A DNA stretch of 64,000 nt, taken from Roseateles saccharophilus. GTDB lineage: Bacteria; Pseudomonadota; Gammaproteobacteria; Burkholderiales; Burkholderiaceae_C. Below the pieces are notes generated by a model, which did not search any database, was not told the origin of the DNA, and saw nothing but the letters and a program-made list of their open reading frames with translations. The position numbers and the translations under genes are program-made. The stretch is taken from contig NZ_SMBU01000014.1 of the NCBI RefSeq assembly GCF_004342485.1, positions 1 through 64,000 on the forward strand, written 5' to 3'. Of the stretch, positions 74 to 19,241 are shown one piece after another; position 1 is the stretch's first letter, and each line of letters opens with the position of its first letter.

Positions 74-3000
74 TCAGACAGCGACGGTCATAACAGCATC
101 CCCGTTCTGCCCGATCCGAGTCAATCGACGCGCTAGAAAATTCCCTCTCCGCAGCGCGGCAGTTTTTCCATTCGGTGATTGAGGCAACTGCTCATGGCAT
201 CGAGTGCAAATCCCGAAGCCGCGGTGCAGATGCACGCGACCGCACGCGTCGCAACGCCACCAAGGCGCGTGCTCATCCACGAGGTGAACATGCAGGCCAT
301 CCAGCCGCACTATTCCGTCCATGTGGCCCAACTGTCCGAGTCGATCTAGCCAACCGCTCAAACGACGATCTACGTCTTCCCCGGTTGCCTCGGCAAACCG
401 CTTCACCCTTCCCGGGAATTCGCGCGGACTTGATATCGGCGCAGGGTCGCGATATCTGTTCCCTTCCACTGCATAGCTGTCTCCAATGACTCGAAGAAGG
501 GCATCCAGCTGATCGGAGTCGGGCTCTTGAGATGCTGTAAGCGACGGATAGCCAACGCCGGTTTCCTCCAGGGCGAAGTACGTCTTAGAAAACAAGACCT
601 CGTAGGTCAACGGTCGCTGCTCGTCAGCCATCGCGGCGCGCGCGACCCCCGCCGTGTCATTGACATCAATCGAGCGCCAACGAGGCGTTCCACCACGGCC
701 ATCGATCCATGAGTGCCAAGGTTTTCCGCAAACTACATCGATGCCCGCAGGATCTATGGGATGAACACCGAGCTCAACGTGGCGACGCATGAGAGCTTTC
801 AGCTCTGTATCTCGTGGACTGCGCGGCTCAAGCAGATCAGACAACGGAACCCTTGACCCGTCTCCAGCCGCCTTCAGCTGGTCAACTCGGTCCTGAAGGT
901 CCATTGCCTGCTTTCGCTTTCCACTCGCCCAGAGTCGATCCACCTCCGCCTGCATCTCGTCAAGGCGTGCCAGTTGCTCGCCGCGCGCCAGCGACACATT
1001 GCGAATTTCGGACACCAAGAGCTGCCGTCTCATGTCTTGGTGATGCCGACGTTCTATGTCGAGCGCGGCGCGAGCTGCGTCCTGCCGGCTATCTGAGAAG
1101 ACAATGGATTTCGCAGCAGAGCCCGTAACGTGGAGCAGAGAAAACAGTTCCGTTGCCAGGAGCTGCGAAGCTTTGGCAAAGCCGATCCGGAAACTTCTAA
1201 GCGGCGAGGCGACGCCCATACCTGGCTTGCGCTTCCCGTAGTCAGTTCCGCAAGACGGACAGCACTTCGGCAAAGCCGACCCCGCTTTTCGCTCATGACC
1301 AGGCGGCGCTGCAAACACCTGACCCGGTACGCTCCAGGGCCCATCCCCGGAGGCTAGAAGAACGCTGTTCCGCGTGTCGAGCACGCGCGGTCTCCACTGC
1401 TCTAGTTTCCCTACTGCCCTAGGCTCTCGCGTAGATGGCCAGAACACTGCGTAGTCAACATGCGCCATATCCTCATAAAGGGTGTCGCTAGTTCGCTCAG
1501 GCAGTTCCTCAAGGTTGGGGGCAGTTGTCAGAATTTCTGAGCTCGCCGCACCGTCCGGGCTTCTCCGACCTCCGACGAATAGCTCACCGCATGCTTCGCA
1601 ATACACGAGTTCGACAAAGCGCCGCAACAACCCATCTTTGCCCTTGGCGTGGGTCATCCCTCGCTCAACCGTCGGCGACTCATAGAGGTAGTTGCCATCC
1701 TCCCGACGGACTGTGCCGAACAGTCCGTCCGTACTTCTAAAGAAGGCATGGATACGGACGCTTGGAAGCGTCGACGCTGCGACCTTTTCATACATGGCCT
1801 TGAGGCCGATTCGATCAGACAACCCTCTAAGGATGCACAGTCCCTGAAGCGCAATCCGCCGGTCGGGCGAATGCCCGAATAGGCTTTCAGCTACAACGTC
1901 CGCAGCAGTTGCCCGAGGCCGGCCAGTAGCCGAGTCCCGGCAGGCGTAGGCCAGCAACGCCGCCACTTCACCGACGACGTCCACCGCAATATCCGCCGTA
2001 TCTCTGCCACTGGTTTGAATTGCCAGAGTCTCAGCAACTGCTTGGATCGCTTCATCCAACTCATTTGACCGACGATCTATAGACGCGACGAACCGATCTG
2101 GCCCATCTGCAAATTTGTGCACCACTGCGACAAACGGCGATGCAGCCAGCGGCAGGCGTGCCGACGCGACGGCTATCTCTTGATCACCCGGCACAACCGC
2201 GCCAGCCCATCTATCAGCGCTTCCAGCGTCCCCTTTGCCGCTAGACGTGCCAAACGAAGCAAAGAATTGGCGTAGGTAGGTCGCTGTGTCCTCTGCTCCC
2301 GCTTCCTCACCAATCGGCAGTGAAGCACTAGAACCGAGCACTCGCAGCTTGTGGCGCATACCATCACGGTGAAGCCCAAGCCGCGCTACAAGCGATCGCA
2401 AGAGACCTACGACCTCCGATCCAGCCGATCCACGGATGAGGTGCAATTCGTCAAGAATTAGATAGAAGTAGGCGTCGTCATCGCGCTCCAACCAATCTCG
2501 CGTAGCGTCCCAGATTGGGGACTCAACCTCTCGAACCAGCATGGTCGCCAGCATCGACATGTTCGTCACAAGGACGTCTGGCGGCGTGGACTGCATATCC
2601 CATCGGCTCACCAACTCACCGCCGTCGAGCGCAGGAAACATGTAGCGTGTTTCGTCATGATCACCCACAACTTCACCGCGCTGTCTAGCCTGCTCGACAC
2701 GCTCTTGTGCTCGCTGATCATGGTCACGCGCAAGCGCCTGGCCCTTCCACATATCGGCCATGCGTGCGGCCAACTTTTCCTTTCGACGTTCAAGGCTTCG
2801 CTTCTCGCCGTCGTCGTCGTACAGACGCGGATGCTCTAGGTGCCCTGTCACGGGCGTATCGCCCGTGTAGCGGCCGAAGAAGATGCGGTTGCCATGGAAT
2901 CGGCTGTCCATCACTCGATGAGCTTCTGGAGAATCGAACGTCCGACGAAGACGCGCCATCTGGTCTTCGACAAGCGCATTCATCGGATACAAGAGGATCG

Positions 3001-3595
3001 CTCGTACTGCTCTTGGCCGGTCAGGATGCTCGTTAGCACGACGCAAGCGAAAATCCGAACCGTCGTCGAACCAGCGCTCGGGGCTCAATGGCCGGCGAGG
3101 CTTCGGCCAATGAATGGCCTCAGCGGAGAGCGCGGCGAGCAGGGGCAGCATGAATGACTCGGTCTTACCTGAGCCGGTCCCCGATGTGACGATGCCCGGA
3201 GTGCCAGGATGCGCGCCCCTTTCCAGCATGTTCCATTGATGTGTGTAAGGGCGAACGCCGCGCCTGCTACGCCGCAGCATTTCAGGATCGTCAGTGTCCT
3301 CCCCGGGAAACAAGCCAGAGAGCGCTAACTCAGCGAATGCTCGCCGTGCCTCATATGAGAATCCGCGCAACGGGTTGCTAGCTTCAGAAAGGCTCCTGAC
3401 GTCCTCAAGCAGGTATTGGCTCTGCCTGTAGCGTGGCACCACCTCAAGAAAAAGGTCCGTCGCGAGCGTACCTGGCTCTCGCAGCAGCACCTGCCTAGCC
3501 GAAGCTAGAGAGGCATCACGTATACGAAAAGCTGTGTCGAGGTAGCTCAGCCAGAACTCTCGAATGCGATTGAAGCCGCCAATTGGATCAAGCAT
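74..3595 (-). CDS. DEAD/DEAH-box helicase of YprA/DrmA/DpdJ type, apparently C-terminally truncated
   Basis: Superfamily 2 helicase. From the chosen ATG the protein is 1173 aa. It has motif I TSGTGSGKTES near residue 140, a YPMNALVEDQ motif, TNMSMLATML, motif II DELH near 382 and motif III GSSAS near 422. Cys pairs occur near 666-669 and 778-782, then a motif IV-like SIVFSDSRQDAAR near 830-843, and a CxxC...CxxC zinc knuckle near 1115-1140. Helicases with this layout normally continue into the rest of RecA-2 (motifs V and VI) and often DUF1998; here the frame stops about 25 residues after the last zinc knuckle. ATG 3595 is preferred over TTG 3631 because GAGAGG lies 5-6 nt upstream and it follows the previous stop by 10 nt. 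It is the third gene of a three-gene unit. A defence role is inferred from the family. Confidence 0.85.
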   Translation of the reverse strand: MLDPIGGFNRIREFWLSYLDTAFRIRDASLASARQVLLREPGTLATDLFLEVVPRYRQSQYLLEDVRSLSEASNPLRGFSYEARRAFAELALSGLFPGEDTDDPEMLRRSRRGVRPYTHQWNMLERGAHPGTPGIVTSGTGSGKTESFMLPLLAALSAEAIHWPKPRRPLSPERWFDDGSDFRLRRANEHPDRPRAVRAILLYPMNALVEDQMARLRRTFDSPEAHRVMDSRFHGNRIFFGRYTGDTPVTGHLEHPRLYDDDGEKRSLERRKEKLAARMADMWKGQALARDHDQRAQERVEQARQRGEVVGDHDETRYMFPALDGGELVSRWDMQSTPPDVLVTNMSMLATMLVREVESPIWDATRDWLERDDDAYFYLILDELHLIRGSAGSEVVGLLRSLVARLGLHRDGMRHKLRVLGSSASLPIGEEAGAEDTATYLRQFFASFGTSSGKGDAGSADRWAGAVVPGDQEIAVASARLPLAASPFVAVVHKFADGPDRFVASIDRRSNELDEAIQAVAETLAIQTSGRDTADIAVDVVGEVAALLAYACRDSATGRPRATAADVVAESLFGHSPDRRIALQGLCILRGLSDRIGLKAMYEKVAASTLPSVRIHAFFRSTDGLFGTVRREDGNYLYESPTVERGMTHAKGKDGLLRRFVELVYCEACGELFVGGRRSPDGAASSEILTTAPNLEELPERTSDTLYEDMAHVDYAVFWPSTREPRAVGKLEQWRPRVLDTRNSVLLASGDGPWSVPGQVFAAPPGHERKAGSALPKCCPSCGTDYGKRKPGMGVASPLRSFRIGFAKASQLLATELFSLLHVTGSAAKSIVFSDSRQDAARAALDIERRHHQDMRRQLLVSEIRNVSLARGEQLARLDEMQAEVDRLWASGKRKQAMDLQDRVDQLKAAGDGSRVPLSDLLEPRSPRDTELKALMRRHVELGVHPIDPAGIDVVCGKPWHSWIDGRGGTPRWRSIDVNDTAGVARAAMADEQRPLTYEVLFSKTYFALEETGVGYPSLTASQEPDSDQLDALLRVIGDSYAVEGNRYRDPAPISSPREFPGRVKRFAEATGEDVDRRLSGWLDRLGQLGHMDGIVRLDGLHVHLVDEHAPWWRCDACGRVHLHRGFGICTRCHEQLPQSPNGKTAALRRGNFLARRLTRIGQNGDAVMTVAV

Positions 3596-3605
3596 CGTTT
3601 CCTCT

Positions 3606-5810
3606 CTATCGCGTAGACCTGAGACTCGCAACCGCGCGCAGACCTAGCTTGAGAGCCTCATGCAGGGATGAGGGGTCTGCTTCAGAAAGAAAATCTGCCC
3701 ATCCGGCAGCGGCATCACGCGCCATGACTTCAGCGGTGTTGATGCCCACGGCTGCTACCCGCAGTGCTCGTCGAATAGCTGCGGTATCTCGACCTCGCTT
3801 GGCTACGAGTTGGAGGGTTTGTCGAGAGAGCGGCGGCGGATCTGACACCAGCCAACGAGTCGGCGCGGCCCCGGCAGAACCCATGATGTCATCGGACCTT
3901 GCCGCATCAGCAAGAGGTCGAGGAGCGAGTGCCGCCAAATACCTTGCTGGATCACTAGCTGGCGGCAGTTCCTGGGCGTCCTCCGTCCTGGCCGACGGCA
4001 GGGCGATGACAAGCAGATTTCTCGGTCGCTGAGCGCTGTCGAGTACTGCCTGGAGGGATGACAACCACAGGCGGAAAGGTGCTGCATCTAAGTCCCGGAT
4101 GCAAAGAAGCACCACTTCACTGGGCACCTGGTGTGCACGGTGCCATGCGAGAGCGAAGGCAGTCGGGCGACCGGTGGGCGACGTTCGCCAAAGATCGTCC
4201 AGCCCAATCACGGAGGGATCGGCAGCATGCACGCGTATTACTCCTCCAGCAACAGCTCGCGAGTACGCACGAAGGCAACTGTCGGCCATCGGCCCCGCCA
4301 AAAGGACCATTTCGCCCGAACGCGCAAAAGCGTCCAAGAGCAGCATGTCTTCGCTCGACACTCCCGCCCATTGCGCCTCATGTATCAACCGATTCCCAAT
4401 TTGGCGAGCGTCAACTATCTCGCAAGCCGCGTTGTCGATCGCGAGTGCCCATGGAGGCAAGGAATTTGGCAAGAAGGGCGGAACAGATTTTTCTCCGCCG
4501 TTCAGCAATGCCTGAAGTCTTGTCGCAAGCGCACCGACGGCTTCGTGATCTGCCCCACCTGCGACTTCGAACACACGTCGCGCACCGTCAGAAAAATTGA
4601 CCAAGCTCGCGCGCAGCGCCTGAAGCTTTGAATCAGCTGCTGAGTTGCCTTCTTCGATCAAGGCACGCTCTCGAAGCAGATCGGCAATTCGCGCCTCAAC
4701 CTCGTCGAGGTCTCGCTGCCTTTCGTCCAGAAGCGTCTGCGCCGCTCCGACGTCCTCCTTCACTTGCTTGATATCTGCGTTAGCTTTCTCGCGATCTCGG
4801 TGCAGCGCCTCAAGAGCACCGGTGCCGAGCTTCAAATCGCGGGATACGTCTCCAAGCTTTTCGTTCAGCTCAACCAACTCCTTCTCTCGACCGGCAAGCC
4901 GAATGGAGATTTCCGACTTAAGTTTGGACTCCATCGAGCTGATCACTTCGCGCGTTCGGTGCTCGATCGCAGTCTCTAGCAAACGTTTCCCCTCATCTGT
5001 GTCTATGAGGAGTGCAGTCATCGAACCTAGCGCTTCCAATGAGCGCGCTGTATCGCTCCATTCGACTCTCAGTCGCTCGACGAACAGCTGCAACTCCTCA
5101 GCGGAACTGGCGGTCAAATTCGCTTCGTGCAAGGCTCGATGTAGACGGCGATGAGGCGCGTCGGTGCCACGAATCATCGCCAGATACGAGGACAGCGCGC
5201 CTCGATACCGGTCAACCACGGAGGCCAAGAAGTCTCCGTCAGAGACCCAGGTAACGCGTGTGACGACTTCAGCAAGTTTTCCCGGCAAGAACGGTGGGCC
5301 ACCGTCCACGCCAATTCCCAGCCAGCTCTGGTCAACAGGACGCAGTTCAACAGACCCGTCTGTTGGCAGCTTGACGTACCACTTGCCTTGGCGAAGTTCG
5401 AACTTGAGGAGCGCGCAATACCCCTCCGGCAGCAACGCCACCGCTGAATTGCCATTGCCTTCTGGCAACACCACGCCCGTCTCGCATAGGGTACGTCGCG
5501 CTTGCGCCATAGAGCCTTTTGAGAGATTGAGCATCGGCAGAGCTCGCTCTGGGTCCTTCGCGACCCATCGATCCGAACCGCTCTCGACATGACATCTGAA
5601 CAGCCAGTACGTTCCAACCCGCTGATGCGACGCAGCGTTTTTCTCGCCGTACACCACGCCTTTGTTGAACGCTTTTCGGCGCTCGGGCTCAGATACGGAG
5701 TCCCAGCTTGATCCGGTGAAGCGCGCTACCGGCTTGAAATGGCTGTAGAGGTTGTTGGCTTTGTCTAGCTGACCCAGCCACACATCATTGTCACCTGCCA
5801 TATTGCTCAT
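3606..5810 (-). CDS. Coiled-coil protein with possible degenerate AAA+ domain, second gene of helicase island
   Basis: A 734-aa protein that I cannot assign to a named family. Residues 1-200 look globular, and about 285-400 form a long charged coiled coil rich in Glu, Lys and Leu. Residues about 498-610 have the order of an AAA+/McrB-like core. A hydrophobic strand, MVLLAGP, sits where Walker A would be but lacks GKS/T. IGLDDLW follows, then a Walker-B-like strand EVVLLCIRDLD and a sensor-1-like strand NLLVIAL. If this is AAA+, it probably does not bind ATP normally. The start is ATG, 3 nt after the stop of the upstream gene, and the stop lies 10 nt before the helicase start, so the three genes are probably co-translated. 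Codon use is less GC-biased than in the rest of the window. Confidence 0.75.
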   Translation of the reverse strand: MSNMAGDNDVWLGQLDKANNLYSHFKPVARFTGSSWDSVSEPERRKAFNKGVVYGEKNAASHQRVGTYWLFRCHVESGSDRWVAKDPERALPMLNLSKGSMAQARRTLCETGVVLPEGNGNSAVALLPEGYCALLKFELRQGKWYVKLPTDGSVELRPVDQSWLGIGVDGGPPFLPGKLAEVVTRVTWVSDGDFLASVVDRYRGALSSYLAMIRGTDAPHRRLHRALHEANLTASSAEELQLFVERLRVEWSDTARSLEALGSMTALLIDTDEGKRLLETAIEHRTREVISSMESKLKSEISIRLAGREKELVELNEKLGDVSRDLKLGTGALEALHRDREKANADIKQVKEDVGAAQTLLDERQRDLDEVEARIADLLRERALIEEGNSAADSKLQALRASLVNFSDGARRVFEVAGGADHEAVGALATRLQALLNGGEKSVPPFLPNSLPPWALAIDNAACEIVDARQIGNRLIHEAQWAGVSSEDMLLLDAFARSGEMVLLAGPMADSCLRAYSRAVAGGVIRVHAADPSVIGLDDLWRTSPTGRPTAFALAWHRAHQVPSEVVLLCIRDLDAAPFRLWLSSLQAVLDSAQRPRNLLVIALPSARTEDAQELPPASDPARYLAALAPRPLADAARSDDIMGSAGAAPTRWLVSDPPPLSRQTLQLVAKRGRDTAAIRRALRVAAVGINTAEVMARDAAAGWADFLSEADPSSLHEALKLGLRAVASLRSTR

Positions 5811-5813
5811 ACG

Positions 5814-8447
5814 TCATTTCATTGCGATGGACGCCCGTGACCAGCCGTCGAGGCGATGTCTTGCTCGGCCGAAATCGGCCACGGTTATTCCTGCACTGAC
5901 TTCGGCCGGTCTATCCAACACGGCAACAAACGCCCTCCCGAGAGCCACGACTAAACCGGGCACAGCACTGGAGGAATATGCATAGCGCCAGGCGCCTTTA
6001 TGCATGACCGGGCCCGGTGCGCGAAGGGCGCCTATATACGCCGTGCGTGCAAAATGCAGCGGCAAATGGCCCTCAAGGGCACAGCAAAGTAGGATGTCGC
6101 CTATCGGTTGGAATAGTGGCTTTCCAGCGCGCCTATGAGCCTCGGCGACGGCCGATGTCCGCGATGAGGTTAGAAAGGCTTGTCCTCTTCCCTCCACTGC
6201 ATAGACATCATGGCGATCCGCCTCCTGACGGCGGTACCAAAGCAGACGCACACCGCTACTGCTACTGGCTTGGCTGAAGCCACCCGCACGCCAGTCCCAC
6301 TCACGATGCACGTGGAAGCCTGCAGTCGTCAGCTTACGCGTCGGCCAGCAACGAGGCGCGCTCACCAGTGAAGCGATGAGTGCATCGCCGACTGGCCAAC
6401 CCAGATTCGTCGAGAGCTGTGTGACATCCACATTCGTCGCGCACATTGACGCAACGGAAAATGGCCCGAGCCCTGCTCGGGCAACTACTCGGCCGCCCAT
6501 CGCCGACGCTGTCAGCTGGAACCGTCTCCGTATTGCTGCGCTGGCGGAACCGGTAAGCAACGCGACATCACCACCGTCAGTCAACATACGGACAATGCGA
6601 GGGGGAACAAGGCGCCATCCCACGGCGCGCCATCCTTCATGGACGACACGCTCTAGCCAGCCTGCCTCATGGAGGGATCGAAGCACCTCCCAAGGAGATG
6701 GCCCTGGACACAGCTCGCGAACCGTCTGCACGAGTTCTCGCTCGGACCAGCCTGCACGACCGAGCGCGTATATCACCTCAAGAAGGTCATCAAACGGCTC
6801 AGGGTGTACGGCGGCCTCATCGTCAACACGCAAGTTGACCTGTCCTGCGACGATCCATGCCTCCTGCACGCACTCTGGATCGGTACACCAGGCGGAGGGA
6901 GTAGGCGGGATTGAGGCATGCGCCGGCGCATCGCCGACGAAACGAACCGGAAGCTCCACAGCAAGCGCCTCACCTCCAGTTAGCGACTCCTGTAGACGGA
7001 TTCGATACAGCCCGTCAACCGGACTCTCCGCGACAAGGCGGTGCATCCCGCCCAAACTCTCTTTAGCCGTCACCAACGCCCTGGCATGCTCGCTGGCGGG
7101 GCGCAAAGTTACGGCCCCACTCCCCCTTCGTCGAACTGACGGCAGCACAGAAGGCCGACCCAGCCATCCTGCCCTCGTGCGTACGCCGAACTCAATCTGG
7201 AGCGGACGTACAACAACGGCTGATGGCGCCTCAATATTTAGTGCGCCGTGTATCAATAGAGCGTCTTTTGCCGCCACCGGGCCTAGGTGGTACCAGGCGC
7301 CACCCACAGCAGCCAGCGAAGGCCGGATCGCCGCCGGGATGCTTGACAAATGGCGGGCGTGAATCAGGTACCTATGCAGTTGGCCATCACAAGGCGGGAT
7401 CGAAGACGCGGTCCAAACTCCGAAGCGTTCAGGCAGGAAAGGAACGGCACCGGCATCGAACATGCGACGCAATCGCAGCGCAGGCTCGCCGCCCCATGCA
7501 TGCAAGCGACGAGCTGTCTCGTCCACACTCTCGGTAAAGGGTGGACAGGTCGCTTGGACTTCGGTGCCATCCCGATCCACCATGGCGACATACAGACGGA
7601 CATCTGAGACGAGTGCTCCTGACACCAGCTCGATGCGGGCAAGGACGAGTTCCGCCTTCTTGCGCGGTTGACTATGCCGAGCGGCACGACAGACCACCGG
7701 CCAGAATCTATGAAGTTCCAGCAGCGAGGTACCGCAGTCATAGAGTTGCCGGAAAGATCTTGCAGCCATGACCATTTCTGGCCGATAGCCTCGCTCATCG
7801 ATGATCAAAGGGCAGATATCTAGTGCGGTCTCTTTCGGCCCCTTTGACGCTCGAAGGAGTCGCGGGCTGGAGTCAAAGTCTGTTCTCAGCGCCTTGATGG
7901 CACGCCAGTTTGGAAACGCGATAGCGTTACTCAGGCCGATATGCTTACCTGGTCCAGGCTGCGGTAAAGAGACTTCGCGGATGGGGTGCCCTTCCGAATG
8001 GCGCAGGCCACACCATCTCACCAGTGCATTCCACATGTGCGGAATTCCTGATCGACTGCCGAATGCTCTTTCCGATTTCAGCAGGCGCCTCAGGTTGTGC
8101 CCGAAGTCCTGGCTGTCTGGGTCGTCATAGGCAGACGCAACGACCGCGCAGCTTAGAACCAAGAAACGCAGGAATCCTGGGGCTCCGCGATCAGGCCAGC
8201 TACGCAGCCAACCGACCTCTAGGGCAGCTGAAACTTGGTGCGGCCCTTCACAACCTCCGACTAGCAACGCCATCGCAGTCTCGGCATCGGGCGCTCCGAA
8301 GGCATCCTGAAGCGCATGGTCCGTCGCATCCAAGTAGGACAACGGGCCAGCACCTCCGGGGCCATCCGAATGAAGGTAGTACCGGACTAGCGCCGCCTCG
8401 ATCTCGACGGGCGTCGAAGATCCCAATTTCGTTCCTACCAGCGTCAA
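5814..8447 (-). CDS. Large uncharacterised protein, first gene of helicase island
   Basis: An 877-aa protein with no catalytic motif that I recognise. The N-terminal 200 residues are helical with Trp-rich patches. Residues about 552-620 look like a winged helix: helices, then a WLERVVHEGWRAVGW hairpin. The C-terminal 200 residues are mixed alpha/beta. No membrane segments or signal peptide are visible. The frame opens with TTG 8447, where GGGAGGG abuts the codon. A second TTG at 8426 has AGGA at a better spacing (6 nt) and may be the real start; no ATG or GTG lies nearby. It heads a unit with only 3 nt before the coiled-coil gene. Large proteins of unknown fold beside YprA-like helicases are common in defence loci, but that role is inferred here. 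Confidence 0.7.
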   Translation of the reverse strand: MTLVGTKLGSSTPVEIEAALVRYYLHSDGPGGAGPLSYLDATDHALQDAFGAPDAETAMALLVGGCEGPHQVSAALEVGWLRSWPDRGAPGFLRFLVLSCAVVASAYDDPDSQDFGHNLRRLLKSERAFGSRSGIPHMWNALVRWCGLRHSEGHPIREVSLPQPGPGKHIGLSNAIAFPNWRAIKALRTDFDSSPRLLRASKGPKETALDICPLIIDERGYRPEMVMAARSFRQLYDCGTSLLELHRFWPVVCRAARHSQPRKKAELVLARIELVSGALVSDVRLYVAMVDRDGTEVQATCPPFTESVDETARRLHAWGGEPALRLRRMFDAGAVPFLPERFGVWTASSIPPCDGQLHRYLIHARHLSSIPAAIRPSLAAVGGAWYHLGPVAAKDALLIHGALNIEAPSAVVVRPLQIEFGVRTRAGWLGRPSVLPSVRRRGSGAVTLRPASEHARALVTAKESLGGMHRLVAESPVDGLYRIRLQESLTGGEALAVELPVRFVGDAPAHASIPPTPSAWCTDPECVQEAWIVAGQVNLRVDDEAAVHPEPFDDLLEVIYALGRAGWSERELVQTVRELCPGPSPWEVLRSLHEAGWLERVVHEGWRAVGWRLVPPRIVRMLTDGGDVALLTGSASAAIRRRFQLTASAMGGRVVARAGLGPFSVASMCATNVDVTQLSTNLGWPVGDALIASLVSAPRCWPTRKLTTAGFHVHREWDWRAGGFSQASSSSGVRLLWYRRQEADRHDVYAVEGRGQAFLTSSRTSAVAEAHRRAGKPLFQPIGDILLCCALEGHLPLHFARTAYIGALRAPGPVMHKGAWRYAYSSSAVPGLVVALGRAFVAVLDRPAEVSAGITVADFGRARHRLDGWSRASIAMK

Positions 8448-8500
8448 CCCTCCCGTAGAGACGCTCTTGCCGGCGCCTAGGATCCGTAACGTTCTGAAAC

Positions 8501-8632
8501 CTACTCGATGGTACGCCGCTTAAAGGGGGCTCGGAACAGCGGTCCTACCCTGATATCTGCCTGCTCAGGCGGCCGCGCCTCACGACTGGCTACCGCCTCT
8601 GGCTCATCCGCGAATAGGCGTGGAGTCTCCAT
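8501..8632 (-). CDS. Possible 43-aa ORF just upstream of the helicase island
   Basis: An ATG opens a 43-codon frame encoding a charged, Pro/Arg-rich peptide that starts METPRLFADEPEA and ends FKRRTIE. The stop lies about 53 nt before the first long island gene, on the same strand. The frame stays open about 14 codons further upstream, so this could also be the remnant end of a longer gene. I see no convincing ribosome binding site and no known family. It may be a small first gene of the operon or simply chance coding. Confidence 0.25.
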   Translation of the reverse strand: METPRLFADEPEAVASREARPPEQADIRVGPLFRAPFKRRTIE

Positions 8633-8681
8633 AGGGTCGAGTGAAGCTTGTGCATGGCGTGCTGGGCCGGATCAGCGAGCA

Positions 8682-8760
8682 GCGAGTTCCAGGTTGAGCG
8701 CAAACCGACAGCGAGTTCAGAGTTGAGCGCAAAGAGTTCAGAACTCAGCGCAAACCGACA
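8682..8760 (-). repeat. Three imperfect tandem repeats, possible IS21-type element end
   Basis: Three units of 23-29 bp occupy 8682-8710, 8711-8733 and 8734-8760. Read on the minus strand, each contains TTTGCGCTSA followed by a GAACTC core, and the outermost begins TGTCGG. Multiple short repeats inside a TG...CA end are typical of IS21-family termini (family knowledge), but no istA or istB is present. The array sits where base composition changes from the less GC-rich island to the GC-rich chromosome. Confidence 0.45.
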
Positions 8761-8830
8761 CAGACAAACAGCCCGTCCCCCCGAATCTGCAGTCCGTCGC
8801 GCCCCGCTAGGTCCCAGCCCGGCCTGGAGA

Positions 8831-8857
8831 TATGGTGTGCTACATCAGCAACACACC
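8831..8857 (+). promoter_or_regulatory. YtrA-type operator with candidate -10 element
   Basis: GGTGTG at 8834-8839 and CACACC at 8852-8857 form an inverted repeat with a 12-bp spacer, about 12 nt upstream of the GntR start codon. YtrA-subfamily regulators bind GGTGTACTA-like palindromes at their own promoters. A TATGGT at 8831-8836 could be a -10 element overlapping the left half-site, which would suit autorepression. No good -35 is visible. Confidence 0.5.
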
Positions 8858-8868
8858 TCGGAGCGCTC

Positions 8869-9222
8869 ATGACTCCCACCTGGACAGACCAGGCGCCGAT
8901 CTACCAGCAGCTGGCCGACCGCCTGGCCGTGCAGCTGCTCGACGGCAGCCCCCCGGAAGGCGAGGCCCTGCCCTCGGTGCGCCAGCTGGCCAGCCAGTAC
9001 GTCATCAACCCGCTGACCGTGACGCGGGCTCTGCAGGAGCTGAGCGAGCACGGCCTGATCGAGTCGCGCCGCGGCCTGGGGATGTTCGTCATGGCCGGCG
9101 CCCGCGAGCGGCTGCTGCGCCACGAGCGCGAGCAGTTCCTGCAGAAGGACTGGCCGGCGCTGCGCGCCCGGCTCAAGCGGTTGGGCCTGAGCGCCAAGGA
9201 TCTGAACTGGGAGTCGACATGA
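8869..9222 (+). CDS. GntR-family transcriptional regulator, YtrA subfamily
   Basis: A 117-aa DNA-binding repressor. Residues about 10-75 are the GntR winged helix, with PIYQQLADRL, LPSVRQLA and NPLTVTRALQEL, ending in the GLGMFV wing. The C-terminal tail is only about 40 residues, which defines the YtrA subfamily; its members control adjacent ABC exporters and respond to envelope stress or peptide antibiotics (family knowledge). The stop overlaps the start of the ABC ATPase gene (ATGA). The ATG at 8869 directly follows a palindromic operator, which suggests autoregulation. Confidence 0.9.
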   Translation: MTPTWTDQAPIYQQLADRLAVQLLDGSPPEGEALPSVRQLASQYVINPLTVTRALQELSEHGLIESRRGLGMFVMAGARERLLRHEREQFLQKDWPALRARLKRLGLSAKDLNWEST

Positions 9223-10091
9223 TGAATCTCATCGAAGCCAAGAACCTGACGCTGCGCTATGGCAAGAAGACGGCGCTGAACGATGTCTCGGTGGCCGTGC
9301 CCAAGGGCCGTGTCGTCGGCCTGCTGGGCCACAACGGCGCGGGCAAGACCTCGCTGATGAAGGCCCTCGTGGGCCTGCTGCCGGTGCAGGGCGAGCTGAC
9401 GGTGCTGGGCCTGCAGCCCACGCGGGACCGCCAGCAGTTGCTGGAGCAGCTCAGCTACATCCCCGACGTGGCCGTGCTGCCGCGCTGGGCCCGGGTGCAT
9501 GAGCTGATCACGCTGATGAGCCGGCTGCAGCCCAAGTTCTCGGCCGAGCGCGCCCGGGCGCTGCTCAGGCGCACCAGCGTCGGCGAGGGCGACAAGGTCA
9601 AGAGCCTGTCCAAGGGCATGGTGGCGCAGACCCATCTGGCGCTGATCGCGGCCATCGACGCGAAGCTGATGATCCTGGACGAGCCGACGCTGGGCCTGGA
9701 CGTGGTCTCGCGCAAGAGCTTCTACGAGATGCTGATCGACGAGTGGTGCGACGGCGAGCGCAGCGTGCTGATCTCGACGCACCAGGTCGAGGAGGTCGAG
9801 GCGCTGCTGAGCGATGTCGTCATGCTGGACGAGGGGCGCGTGGCGCTGTCGATCAGCCTGGAGGACATCGACCGCCGCTTCGTCGCGCTCAACCATGACC
9901 CGGCCGCCGCGGACGCGATGGCCGCCGCCCACCCGCTGCTGCGCTACCGCGAGCAGGGCCGCACGACGGCACTGTTCGACGGCGCGCCGCCCGAGCATGT
10001 CGCCAGCCTGGGCCAGCGCGTGCGGCCCAGCCTCGTCGACCTCTTCATGGCGCTGACCCGCAACCCGGCGCTCAACGGCAAGCAAGCCTGA
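9219..10091 (+). CDS. ABC transporter ATP-binding protein of GntR-controlled operon
   Basis: A 290-aa nucleotide-binding subunit. Walker A GHNGAGKT is at residues 37-44, an atypical signature SLSKGM replaces LSGGQ, Walker B is LMILDEP, and the switch His is in STHQVEE. This resembles the CcmA/YtrB/BcrA group of export ATPases. It probably powers the membrane protein encoded next, exporting a peptide, drug or lipid; the substrate is unknown. Two in-frame ATGs (9219, 9222) overlap the regulator stop, implying translational coupling. Confidence 0.9.
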   Translation: MMNLIEAKNLTLRYGKKTALNDVSVAVPKGRVVGLLGHNGAGKTSLMKALVGLLPVQGELTVLGLQPTRDRQQLLEQLSYIPDVAVLPRWARVHELITLMSRLQPKFSAERARALLRRTSVGEGDKVKSLSKGMVAQTHLALIAAIDAKLMILDEPTLGLDVVSRKSFYEMLIDEWCDGERSVLISTHQVEEVEALLSDVVMLDEGRVALSISLEDIDRRFVALNHDPAAADAMAAAHPLLRYREQGRTTALFDGAPPEHVASLGQRVRPSLVDLFMALTRNPALNGKQA

Positions 10092-10107
10092 CCTGGAGGA
10101 ACAAGCC

Positions 10108-10974
10108 ATGAACAACCACATCCCGACCCTGCTGCTGCGCGAATGGATGCAGCACAAGCGCGGCTGGCTGATCGCCGCGTTTGCGCCACCTCTTCTTTTC
10201 CTGGCCGTGCTGCCCTTCAGCCACATGGATGGCCGGCCCGATGGCACGCTCGAGTTGATCGCGCTGGCGATCCTGGTCATCTGCAGCTGCGCGATCTACG
10301 GCATTGCCTTGCTCGTTGCGCTGTTCCAGCTGCCCGGCCTGGCGCGGCGCGATGCGCAGGACCGCTCCATCGAGTTCTGGCTGTCGCTGCCCGGGCGACC
10401 CAGCGAGAGCGTGGCTTCGACGGTGCTGGCGCACGCCTGGCTCGCTCCGGTGGGGGGCGCCGTCGTCGGCGCGGCCTTTGGTCTGCCGATCGCGTTGTTG
10501 ATGCTGGGCCGCATGTTCGGCTGGGCCGACACGATGGCCCTGCACTGGGGCGAGGTGGTGGTGGCCGCACTCCCGCTGCTGCTGCGTGGGCTGGTCGGCA
10601 CGGTGCTGCTGACGCTGTGGCTGCTGCCGCTGATCTTCGTGCTGATGGCGGCTTCGGCCTGGCTCAAGCGCCTGGGCGTGCCGGTGGCGCTGGTGGGCGG
10701 CGGCGTGGCGGTGGCGGTGATGCACAAGGTCTATGGCATCGATTGGCCGCTGGTGGCACTGCTCGACCTGAACGAGCACATCAATCACTCGTTGCTGTAT
10801 GACGGCCACGGCCTGGTTAGCGCGCTGCGGTCCGGCCTGGACATCGGCGGCTACATGCTTCAGGACCTGGGCCGCTCGGCGGCGGAACTGATGTCGCTGT
10901 CCTTCGTCGGCTGGATGGCGGTGGCAGCGGCGGGCTTTGCGCTGGTGGTGGCGAAGCGCGCGCGTGGCGGCTGA
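10108..10974 (+). CDS. ABC transporter permease of GntR-controlled operon
   Basis: A 288-aa inner-membrane protein with about six hydrophobic segments (near residues 20-40, 50-72, 105-130, 145-165, 170-205 and 265-283). It follows the ATPase by 16 nt, with GGAGG-like sequence before the ATG, so the two most likely form one exporter under the GntR regulator. The conserved substrate site cannot be read from sequence. A hairpin with a T-rich tail follows at 11000. Confidence 0.85.
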   Translation: MNNHIPTLLLREWMQHKRGWLIAAFAPPLLFLAVLPFSHMDGRPDGTLELIALAILVICSCAIYGIALLVALFQLPGLARRDAQDRSIEFWLSLPGRPSESVASTVLAHAWLAPVGGAVVGAAFGLPIALLMLGRMFGWADTMALHWGEVVVAALPLLLRGLVGTVLLTLWLLPLIFVLMAASAWLKRLGVPVALVGGGVAVAVMHKVYGIDWPLVALLDLNEHINHSLLYDGHGLVSALRSGLDIGGYMLQDLGRSAAELMSLSFVGWMAVAAAGFALVVAKRARGG

Positions 10975-10999
10975 GCCTGCGGCAGGCCGAAGCGACATG

Positions 11000-11022
11000 G
11001 GGGCCGACGAGGCCCCTTTCTT
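11000..11022 (+). terminator. Rho-independent terminator of the GntR/ABC operon
   Basis: GGGGCC and GGCCCC pair around a 5-nt loop and are followed by TTTCTT. It lies about 25 nt after the permease stop, between convergent genes. Confidence 0.7.
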
Positions 11023-15913: not shown

Positions 15914-17325
15914 ACCCGTTGAATTCGTTCGGCGACATCGCCCGCCTGCTCGTCCTCAACACGGACAGCTACAAGGCCAGCCACTGGCTGCAATACCCGC
16001 CGCAGACGACGACCGTCTTCAGCTACATCGAGGCGCGCGGCGGCACGCTGCCCTACACGGTCTTCTTCGGCCTGCAGGCGCTGCTGAAGGAGTACTTCAG
16101 CAAGGCGGTCACGGCCGATGACGTTGTTTTGGCTGGCGAGATCTGCGCGGCCCACGGCGTACCGTTCAACCGCGAAGGCTGGCAGCACATCGTCGACGCG
16201 CAAGGCGGCCGGCTGCCGGTGCGCATCCGTGCGGTGCCCGAGGGCACGGTGGTGCCCGTGGGCCACGCCCTCGTCACTGTCGAGAACACCGACCCGGCCT
16301 GCTGGTGGCTCACGAGCTTCCTCGAGACGGCGCTGCTGCGCGTCTGGTACCCGACGACGGTGGCCAGCCACAGCCAGGCCACGCGCCGCCTGATCGCCGA
16401 TGCCCTCGCGCGCACCGGAGACCCCGCGGGCCTGTCATTCAAGCTGCATGACTTCGGCGCGCGTGGCGTGTCGTCGCTGGAGTCGGCCATGCTGGGCGGC
16501 ATGGCCCATCTCGTGAACTTCCAGGGCACCGACACGATGACGGCCCTGCTCGGTGCCCGCGCCTACTACGGCGAGCCCATGGCCGGCTTCTCCATCCCCG
16601 CGGCCGAGCACAGCACCATCACCGCCTGGGGGCGCGACGGCGAGCTGGACGCCTACCGCAACATGCTCAGGCAGTTCGCCAGGCCGGGCGCCGTGCTGGC
16701 CGTCGTGTCCGATTCCTACGACCTGGACCTCGCCGTCTCCCGGCTCTGGGGCGGGGCTTTGCGCGAGGCCGTCATCGCCAGCGGCGCCACCGTCGTCATC
16801 CGCCCCGACAGCGGCGACCCGACCAGCGTCGTGCTGCGCACCGTGCGCGCGCTGGACGCGAGTTTCGGCAGCGACATGAACGCCAAGGGCTACCGGGTGC
16901 TGAGGCATGTGCGCGTCATCCAGGGCGACGGCATCACGCGCGAGTCCATCGCCAGCATCCTCGGCGCGCTGGAGTCGGCCGGCTACTCGGCCGACAACAT
17001 CGCCTTCGGCCAGGGCGGCGCACTGCTGCAGCAGGTCAACCGCGACACGCTGGGTTTCGCGATGAAGGCCTCGGCCGCCAAGGTGGGCGGGCATTGGCGC
17101 GATGTCTTCAAGGCGCCCGTCACCGACCCGGCCAAGCGCAGCAAGGCCGGGCGCCTCACGCTGATGCGCCGAGGCGAGGCCTTCGCGACGGTGCGCCTGG
17201 ACGGGCCGGGCTACCAGCAGGCCCTGGCCGACGGCGCGACCGAAGTGATGCGCACCGTCTTCGAAAACGGCCGCCTGCTCGTCGACGACAGCTTTGCGGC
17301 CATCCGCGCCCGCGCGGCCGGCTGA
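15910..17325 (+). CDS. Nicotinamide/nicotinate phosphoribosyltransferase (NAMPT/NadV type)
   Basis: A 471-aa enzyme converting nicotinamide plus PRPP to NMN for NAD salvage. NAMPT-type motifs are TDSYKASHW at the N-terminus, [22 protein letters not shown] and RPDSGDP for the phosphoribosyl site. The length fits NAMPT rather than bacterial PncB. The start is TTG overlapping the hprK stop (TTGA); a second in-frame TTG lies 9 nt on. No NrtR-type regulator or NMN adenylyltransferase is adjacent. Nicotinamide is the likelier substrate, by similarity. Confidence 0.9.
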
Positions 17326-17366: not shown

Positions 17367-19241
17367 ATGGCAGTCCTCTCCCTCACCAACGCCCATCTCG
17401 CCTTCGGCCATGTCGCCTTGCTCGATGGCGCCAACTTCGCGCTGGAAACCGGCGAACGCGTCGGCCTTATCGGCCGCAACGGCACCGGCAAGTCCTCGCT
17501 GCTGAAGATCCTCGCCGGCCTCGAGAAGCTCGACGACGGCCTGCTGCAGCAACAGCAGGGCCTGACCAATGTCTATGTGCCGCAGGAGCCCGAGCTGCGC
17601 GGCGACGCGACCATCTTCGACGTCGTCAGCGAGGGCGTCGCCGAGGCCAAGGCCCTGCGCGAACGCTATGAGCGCCACGACGAGAACGACGACCTGGCCT
17701 GGGTGCAGGAGCGCATCGAGCACATCGGCGCCTGGAACTGGGAGCAGCGTGTCGACGAGACCCTGCACCGCCTGGGCCTGGACGGCACGCGCCTGGTGGG
17801 CAGCCTGTCCGGCGGGCTGAAGAAGCGCGTGGCCCTGGGCCGTGCGCTGGTCGCCCAGCCCGATGTGCTGCTGCTGGACGAACCCACCAACCACCTGGAC
17901 CTGGACGCCATCACCTGGCTGGAAGGCCTGCTGAACGACTTCAAGGGCTCGCTGCTGCTGATCACCCACGACCGCGCCTTCCTGGACAACGTGGCCAACC
18001 GCATCGTCGAGCTGGACCGCGGCCAGCTGCGCGGCTACCCCGGCAACTTCGCCGCCTTCCAGGCCGCCAAGGCCTATGAGCTGGAGAACGAGGCGCTGTT
18101 CAACGCCCGCTTCGACAAGCTGCTGGCGCAGGAGGAGATCTGGATCCGCAAGGGCGTCGAGGCCCGCCGCACGCGCTCGGTTGCGCGCATCCAGCGCCTG
18201 GAGGCCATGCGCCTGGCCCACGCTGCGCGGCGCGACGTGCAGGGCAAGGTCAAGCTGGACATCGACACCGGTGGCGCCAGCGGCAAGATCGTCGCAGAGC
18301 TGGAGGACGTGTCCAAGAGCTTCGGCGAGCGCGCCATCGTGCGCGGCTTCACGACCACCATCCTGCGCGGCGACAAGGTCGGCCTGATCGGCCCCAACGG
18401 CGCCGGCAAGACGACGCTGCTGAAGATGATTCTCGGCGAGCTGCCGCCCGACAGCGGCACGGTGCGCCTGGGCTCGCGGCTGACGGTGGCCTATTTCGAC
18501 CAGATGCGCGACACGCTGAACCTCGACGCGACGCTGGCCGACACCATCAGCCCCGGCTCGGAGTGGATCGAGATCGGCACGCAGAAGAAGCATGTGAAGA
18601 GCTATCTCGGCGACTTCCTGTTCTCGCCGGCGCGCGCCAACTCGCCGGTGCGCACGCTGTCGGGCGGCGAGCGCAACCGCCTGCTGCTGGCCCGCCTGTT
18701 CGCGCGGCCGGCCAATGTGTTGGTGCTGGACGAGCCCACCAACGACCTCGACATCGAGACGCTGGAGCTGCTGGAGGAATTGCTGGCCGACTACGACGGC
18801 ACGGTCTTCCTCGTCAGCCATGACCGGCGCTTCCTGGACAACGTCGTCACCTCCACCCTCGTCTACGAGGGCGATGCGCGCTGGCGCGAGTACGAGGGCA
18901 GCGTGCAGGACTGGCTGACGCAGTCCAAGCGCGCCGCGGCGCTGCAGGCCAAGGCGGCGCCGGCTGCCGCCGCGCCCACGCCGCCGCCTGCGCCCGAGCC
19001 GGCCCCGGTCGTCGCCACCAAGCGCAAGCTCAGCTACAAGGAGCAGCGCGAGCTGGACGAGATCCCCAAGCAGATCGCCGCGCTGGAGGCCGAGCAGACC
19101 CAGCTCAACGCGTTGATCGCCGGCAGCGAGCTCTACACGCAGGGTGCCAAGCGCATCGCCGAGGTGACCGAGCGTGCCGCCGAGATCGACACCGAGCTGC
19201 TGGCGCTGATGGAGCGCTGGGAAGTGCTGGAAGCCAAGTGA
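17367..19241 (+). CDS. uup: ABC-F ATPase Uup
   Basis: A 624-aa cytosolic ABC-F protein with tandem ATPase domains and no membrane part. The first Walker A is GRNGTGKS (residues 36-43) with signature LSGGLKKR; the second is GPNGAGKT with LSGGERNR. An Ala/Pro-rich linker then leads to a C-terminal coiled-coil domain beginning KLSYKEQRELDEIP, which is diagnostic of Uup. Uup acts on ribosomes and affects branched-DNA stability and transposon excision (family knowledge). The ATG at 17367 starts the first conserved strand. The stop overlaps the next gene. Confidence 0.93.
   Translation: MAVLSLTNAHLAFGHVALLDGANFALETGERVGLIGRNGTGKSSLLKILAGLEKLDDGLLQQQQGLTNVYVPQEPELRGDATIFDVVSEGVAEAKALRERYERHDENDDLAWVQERIEHIGAWNWEQRVDETLHRLGLDGTRLVGSLSGGLKKRVALGRALVAQPDVLLLDEPTNHLDLDAITWLEGLLNDFKGSLLLITHDRAFLDNVANRIVELDRGQLRGYPGNFAAFQAAKAYELENEALFNARFDKLLAQEEIWIRKGVEARRTRSVARIQRLEAMRLAHAARRDVQGKVKLDIDTGGASGKIVAELEDVSKSFGERAIVRGFTTTILRGDKVGLIGPNGAGKTTLLKMILGELPPDSGTVRLGSRLTVAYFDQMRDTLNLDATLADTISPGSEWIEIGTQKKHVKSYLGDFLFSPARANSPVRTLSGGERNRLLLARLFARPANVLVLDEPTNDLDIETLELLEELLADYDGTVFLVSHDRRFLDNVVTSTLVYEGDARWREYEGSVQDWLTQSKRAAALQAKAAPAAAAPTPPPAPEPAPVVATKRKLSYKEQRELDEIPKQIAALEAEQTQLNALIAGSELYTQGAKRIAEVTERAAEIDTELLALMERWEVLEAK

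Follow-up and report, generated by a model that had tools for sequence, protein, structure and literature searches.

The founding paper on Druantia is that of Doron et al. 2018. Type II of these systems is listed with the components DruMFGE (passages of PMC13316683), and, together with type I, it also goes under the name Type IV CoCoNuT (Bell et al. 2025; PMC12458937). In the relevant passages of that work, the helicase of types I and II carries a C-terminal nuclease-like domain that is predicted to be inactive, and the operons of both types contain an inactivated McrB-like ATPase partner (CnuB) with an extended coiled coil; these passages do not state by Dru name which gene carries CnuB. For Druantia III, passages of PMC13192584 report that DruE binds 3′ single-stranded DNA and describe it as a helicase-nuclease that acts at a late stage of infection, while in a mycobacterial type III system DruH-DruE blocks the circularization of phage DNA, according to passages of PMC13316683.

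The locus analyzed here lies at the beginning of a 64,000-nucleotide stretch of the Roseateles saccharophilus genome, referred to in its entirety as the window. The front 60% of druE, together with druG and druF, remains in its native order, and the end of a mobile element adjoins druE. We interpret it, with a probability of about 0.9, as a Druantia type II locus that has decayed and was probably acquired horizontally. The relevant features are as follows:

1–95, strand not given: end of a mobile element that is repeated in the genome, with the end of contig C14 (one of 108 contigs) at position 1; the element supplies the last few druE codons and the stop
96–3595, minus strand: druE, front part only; 1173-aa frame with its ATG at 3595 and its stop at 74–76; PADLOC DruE2 (PDLC00014)
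3606–5810, minus strand: druG, 734 aa; PADLOC DruG2 (PDLC00025)
5814–8447, minus strand: druF, 877 aa; PADLOC DruF2 (PDLC00019)
8685–8776, strand not given: probable island junction and limit of the similarity to chromosomes of the genus
8869–9222, plus strand: GntR-family regulator (PF00392, E 1.5e-14), the first chromosomal gene beside the island

Identity of the three genes and their relatives

Re-reading of the open reading frames returned the three same-strand genes of 877, 734 and 1173 aa, separated by 3 and 10 bp, that the first-pass annotation had described. The third is present as a frame but does not represent a whole gene, which went unnoticed at first pass, since it is cut at the repeated element on the contig end and its counterparts in seven relatives have 1935–1968 aa; the mechanical ORF, which begins at an upstream TTG, has 1185 aa. 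The G+C content of druF, druG and druE is 0.586–0.606, with a GC3 of ~0.60. As the GC3 list for other genes was an uncurated choice of the longest ORFs, the plain G+C profile was used to assess composition. In 2-kb windows, this profile is 0.580–0.612 up to 7001–9000 and 0.633–0.750 from 8001 on, in agreement with the earlier observation that codon use in the trio is less GC-rich than in the neighboring chromosome.

Each of the three genes matches a PADLOC model of a Druantia type II component. DruF matches over profile positions 7–827 of 850 (E 2.6e-102), DruG with an E of 1.7e-22, and DruE with an E of 0 and 1221.6 bits over profile positions 1–1156 of 1928. The assignment of the helicase to the YprA/DrmA/DpdJ family and the defense origin of the trio were both correctly recognized at first pass, whereas the two partners, which had been said to match no family, are DruF and DruG. 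Above the respective cut-offs, Pfam shows only the DEAD box of DruE in the trio and NCBIfam shows no match; for DruF, neither database gives a match at E up to 1. These results explain why the partners were unrecognizable to a reader without tools, and naming these two proteins without Pfam matches as DruF and DruG closes a false lead.

The type II branch is also indicated by the ranking of the DruE models: the DruE2 models score 1221.6 (PDLC00014) and 957.9 bits, ahead of DruE4 (657.4 bits) and DruE1 (288.1 bits). Druantia type IV (DruE, DruF, DruL) has DruE and DruF in common with this locus and likewise occurs without DruM, as described in passages of PMC8565338, and its DruE4 model does match. 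Nevertheless, we find type IV barely plausible, as both DruE2 models score higher and a cytosine methylase is close by in all seven relatives examined. Furthermore, the middle gene here matches DruG, which is absent from type IV in those passages, and no DruL-named family in place of DruG/DruM is found among the hits.

Seven relatives were obtained using DruF as the query, and all were examined. One, from Variovorax, was obtained in a scan of genome contigs, which picks up only close relatives, and the other six belong to a plasmid collection (Burkholderia, Roseomonas, Sinorhizobium, Rhizobium, Methylobacterium and Agrobacterium). DruF and DruE were detected by tblastn in all seven. DruG was detected in six by tblastn and in six by the PADLOC model, with differing misses (Agrobacterium, Rhizobium), and thus in seven of seven by the two methods together. 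The order druF-druG-druE is preserved on one strand in every case, so the co-occurrence of the trio in other genomes, a check proposed at first pass, holds in these relatives.

The first-pass annotation had proposed the trio as a candidate new defense system. Such a proposal would be consistent with the conservation of the trio across several genera, some of which have restriction genes (GmrSD, McrC) next to it. Against it, each gene matches the model of a described type II component and the gene order is that of all seven relatives; the PADLOC search thus gave the very result, a match of all three genes to a known system with no new features, that had been named as speaking against novelty. 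We consider the probability of a new three-gene system to be close to nil. Judging from the profile matches, the trio is not new and derives from the already described Druantia type II. The original observation is therefore partly confirmed and its interpretation partly supported.

A cytosine methylase is located near each of the seven trios, in Roseomonas (L018) by the annotation of the record alone. Among three of these methylases that were compared, the DruM model ranks best for one, and third, behind other C5 methylase models, for two. A separate gene for a Vsr endonuclease is also found near all seven trios (L016/L060, L017–L022), on either side of the trio and on the same or the opposite strand; where PMC12458937 deals with Vsr, it describes fused Vsr-like domains. 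The vsr gene may simply accompany the cytosine methylase. Both lie near every trio, which points to genuine 5-methylcytosine as the product of the methylase in these hosts. Some relatives of the trio are adjoined by GmrSD-type genes and by mcrC together with a gene for an AAA ATPase (L018 20757–21857; L019 8124–9239; L020 18313–20183), which fits defense islands.

The nearest relative found is that of Variovorax sp. J22R24 (NZ_JASZYF010000040.1; L016/L060), in which the three genes have the same order and encode proteins with identities of 68% (DruE), 49% (DruF) and 40% (DruG) to those described here. In contrast to the present locus, it contains a whole DruE of 1936 aa. Past the position of the cut, the remainder of druE is followed by vsr (16226–16753), an ORF of 287 aa and a C5 methylase gene on the other strand (17642–18817).

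Structure models of DruG and DruF built from two-sequence alignments have mean pLDDT values of 41.4 and 34.2, respectively, and are too poor to use. The low-confidence DruG model shows long helices, with about residues 272–416 probably forming a coiled coil. When solved structures were searched with the DruG profile, 44 matches were obtained, all weak (best E 0.006), of which 43 fall within profile positions 207–420, a region of helices and predicted coiled coil; the DruF profile gave three matches (best E 1.5). A Walker A motif (GxxxxGK[ST]) is absent from all eight DruG proteins. The modeled long helices of DruG and the missing Walker A would agree with an inactivated McrB-like partner, but do not prove it.

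Truncation of druE at a repeated element

The DruE of this locus corresponds to residues 1–1159 of the Variovorax protein. This front part carries a Walker A motif, a DE-H box, the FSDSRQDA motif and CxxC pairs; motif V, motif VI and the C-terminal OB-CON-DUF1998 part (domain names for the region past the cut are taken from passages of PMC12458937) are all absent from it. In seven of seven relatives, motif V (TTTMEVGID) starts 49–59 residues, and motif VI (QRVGRAGR) 78–88 residues, past the end of the match. The names and roles of these motifs are those generally used for helicases, and an SF2 helicase whose second RecA domain lacks motifs V and VI should not couple ATP hydrolysis to movement. 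Since both motifs lie beyond the cut in every relative, it is very unlikely that this DruE works as a helicase. It keeps the ATP-binding first RecA domain, but, from the loss of motifs V and VI and of the DUF1998 part, ATP-driven movement also appears very unlikely.

The druE stop codon (74–76) falls inside the element. The element end is present in at least 14 other places of the genome, 12 with 96–100% and two with 82% identity, a count that is a lower bound, with 40 of 66 candidates scored. In an alignment of eight of the 15 copies, including that of the window, identity stops sharply after window position 95. One copy (L006) extends into an ORF of 192 aa with a DUF6431 domain.

Searches of the 108-contig assembly for the back half of DruE, with either the DruE profile or the Variovorax DruE as the query, did not find it, although both detected back-half matches in a divergent DruE on contig C1. 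A match of the Variovorax query on contig C61 (query 1171–1266, 29%, E 7.9e-5), which begins just past the cut, was rejected as the missing half, as it belongs to a complete protein of 486 aa, called a DEAD-box helicase by eye from its motifs, that shares only the stretch from motif V to motif VI. The C5 methylase family PF00145 has no match in the whole assembly, in a search that was positive in 10 of 14 control genomes, and Vsr has none, in a search that was positive in five of 14. A Rhizobium methylase also found nothing when used as a query against the assembly, a search that had no positive control. Thus, as DruM and a whole DruE, with both RecA domains and the C-terminal part, were searched for and neither was detected, this copy is not classifiable as a complete Druantia type II.

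The position of the cut raises the question of an artifact. The organism might possess a whole, or element-interrupted, Druantia type II, with the rest of druE, vsr and druM missing merely because the assembly collapsed a repeat. The contig does end where druE is cut, inside a repeated element, which is a usual point for an assembly to break, and six of the seven other element copies examined as loci touch a contig end. However, collapsed repeats lose the repeat itself rather than its unique flanks, and this genome, although rated 100% complete, lacks vsr, the C5 methylase and the ~2.3 kb that encode the back half of DruE. Moreover, the element is joined directly to druE codons at position 95, the same boundary as in seven other aligned copies. 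We regard loss by assembly as unlikely. What stands against a decayed locus is the location of the cut at the contig end, so that no sequence reads across the true junction. DNA outside the assembly might contain the missing half, although none of the 108 contigs, which together are rated 100% complete, shows a trace of it.

If the locus has decayed, as we favor, vsr, druM and the back of druE were most likely lost together in a single deletion adjacent to the element. One such deletion would explain all of the losses, because Variovorax has these genes in that order just past the cut.

Origin of the island and a second Druantia locus

DruF was not found in any of 19 other genomes of the same genus, and the island therefore looks acquired, as well as decaying. 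Among 60 genomes searched, including its own, the sole other DruF match is short and weak (E 8.0e-5) and lies in another genus of the family (G035); it was rejected as a relative, with druG and druE not found in the 12 kb examined there.

The 17 same-genus loci aligned to window positions 8300–9300 all start between 8685 and 8776. As these loci align only from there onward, the island probably ends at 8685–8776, and the GntR gene at 8869 is probably chromosomal. The region 8832–11000 is matched in 20 of 20 genomes of the genus, including its own, in two of them by short pieces only. A short repeat at 8714–8764, between the island and the chromosome, has an 88% copy on contig C57 and may represent one end of a further mobile element. 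In the relative G005, the stretch to the left of the GntR gene (L032 1–1500) has its best match in the present genome on contig C6 (82%). At the window, only the last 86 bases of this stretch match, adjoining the GntR gene; the neighborhood to its left is thus rearranged and synteny with G005 is broken.

A second, longer Druantia, which is type I-like, is found on contig C1 of the same genome (L027 7225–12675 and 14493–15566). Its DruE1 match has 1816 aa and covers profile positions 40–1771 of 1776 with 1851.6 bits, and a DruD1 match lies beside it (E 6.1e-71). At the limits used, an adjoining gene of 993 aa matches neither a PADLOC nor a Pfam model, and DruA, DruB and DruC were not identified at this locus. 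ShosA/ShosT-like genes on one side of it and Leo-like genes on the other (L027 4383–5928; L063 936–4957) make contig C1 look like a defense island.

The presence of a second DruE allows a reading in which the remnant still acts: DruF, DruG and the cut DruE, with its ATP-binding half kept, would be expressed and form a hybrid Druantia with the type I-like DruE of contig C1. For the mycobacterial type III system, passages of PMC13316683 report that a different helicase of the family takes the place of DruE. We give such a hybrid only a slight chance.

Possible mechanism and comparison with known systems

For the intact relatives, a mechanism can be proposed by carrying over what is described for type III and by drawing on published structure predictions. 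DruM would mark the DNA of the host by cytosine methylation, DruF and DruG may act as sensors of infection or as a scaffold for the complex, and DruE would load on phage replication intermediates at their 3′ single-stranded DNA and block or unwind them. By this analogy, the intact relatives could act as a methylation-marked, helicase-driven block on phage DNA.

The decayed locus in the window most likely gives no defense, since its DruE lacks motifs V and VI and the DUF1998 part. As the frames of DruF and DruG are still open, the decay may be recent, or these proteins may still act. The locus provides an example of a defense system decaying beside a mobile element.

The helicases of DISARM, Dpd and ARMADA (DrmA, DpdJ and others) belong to the same YprA family as DruE, as described in passages of PMC12458937, and weak DpdJ matches are seen here; in contrast to those systems, the partner genes of this locus match the DruF and DruG models best, rather than the partners found there. 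Compared to Druantia type II (druM-druF-druG-druE), DruM and Vsr were not found in the assembly and DruE is cut to about 60% at the end of a mobile element, whereas the homologues of DruF, DruG and DruE are retained here in the same order and on the same strand.
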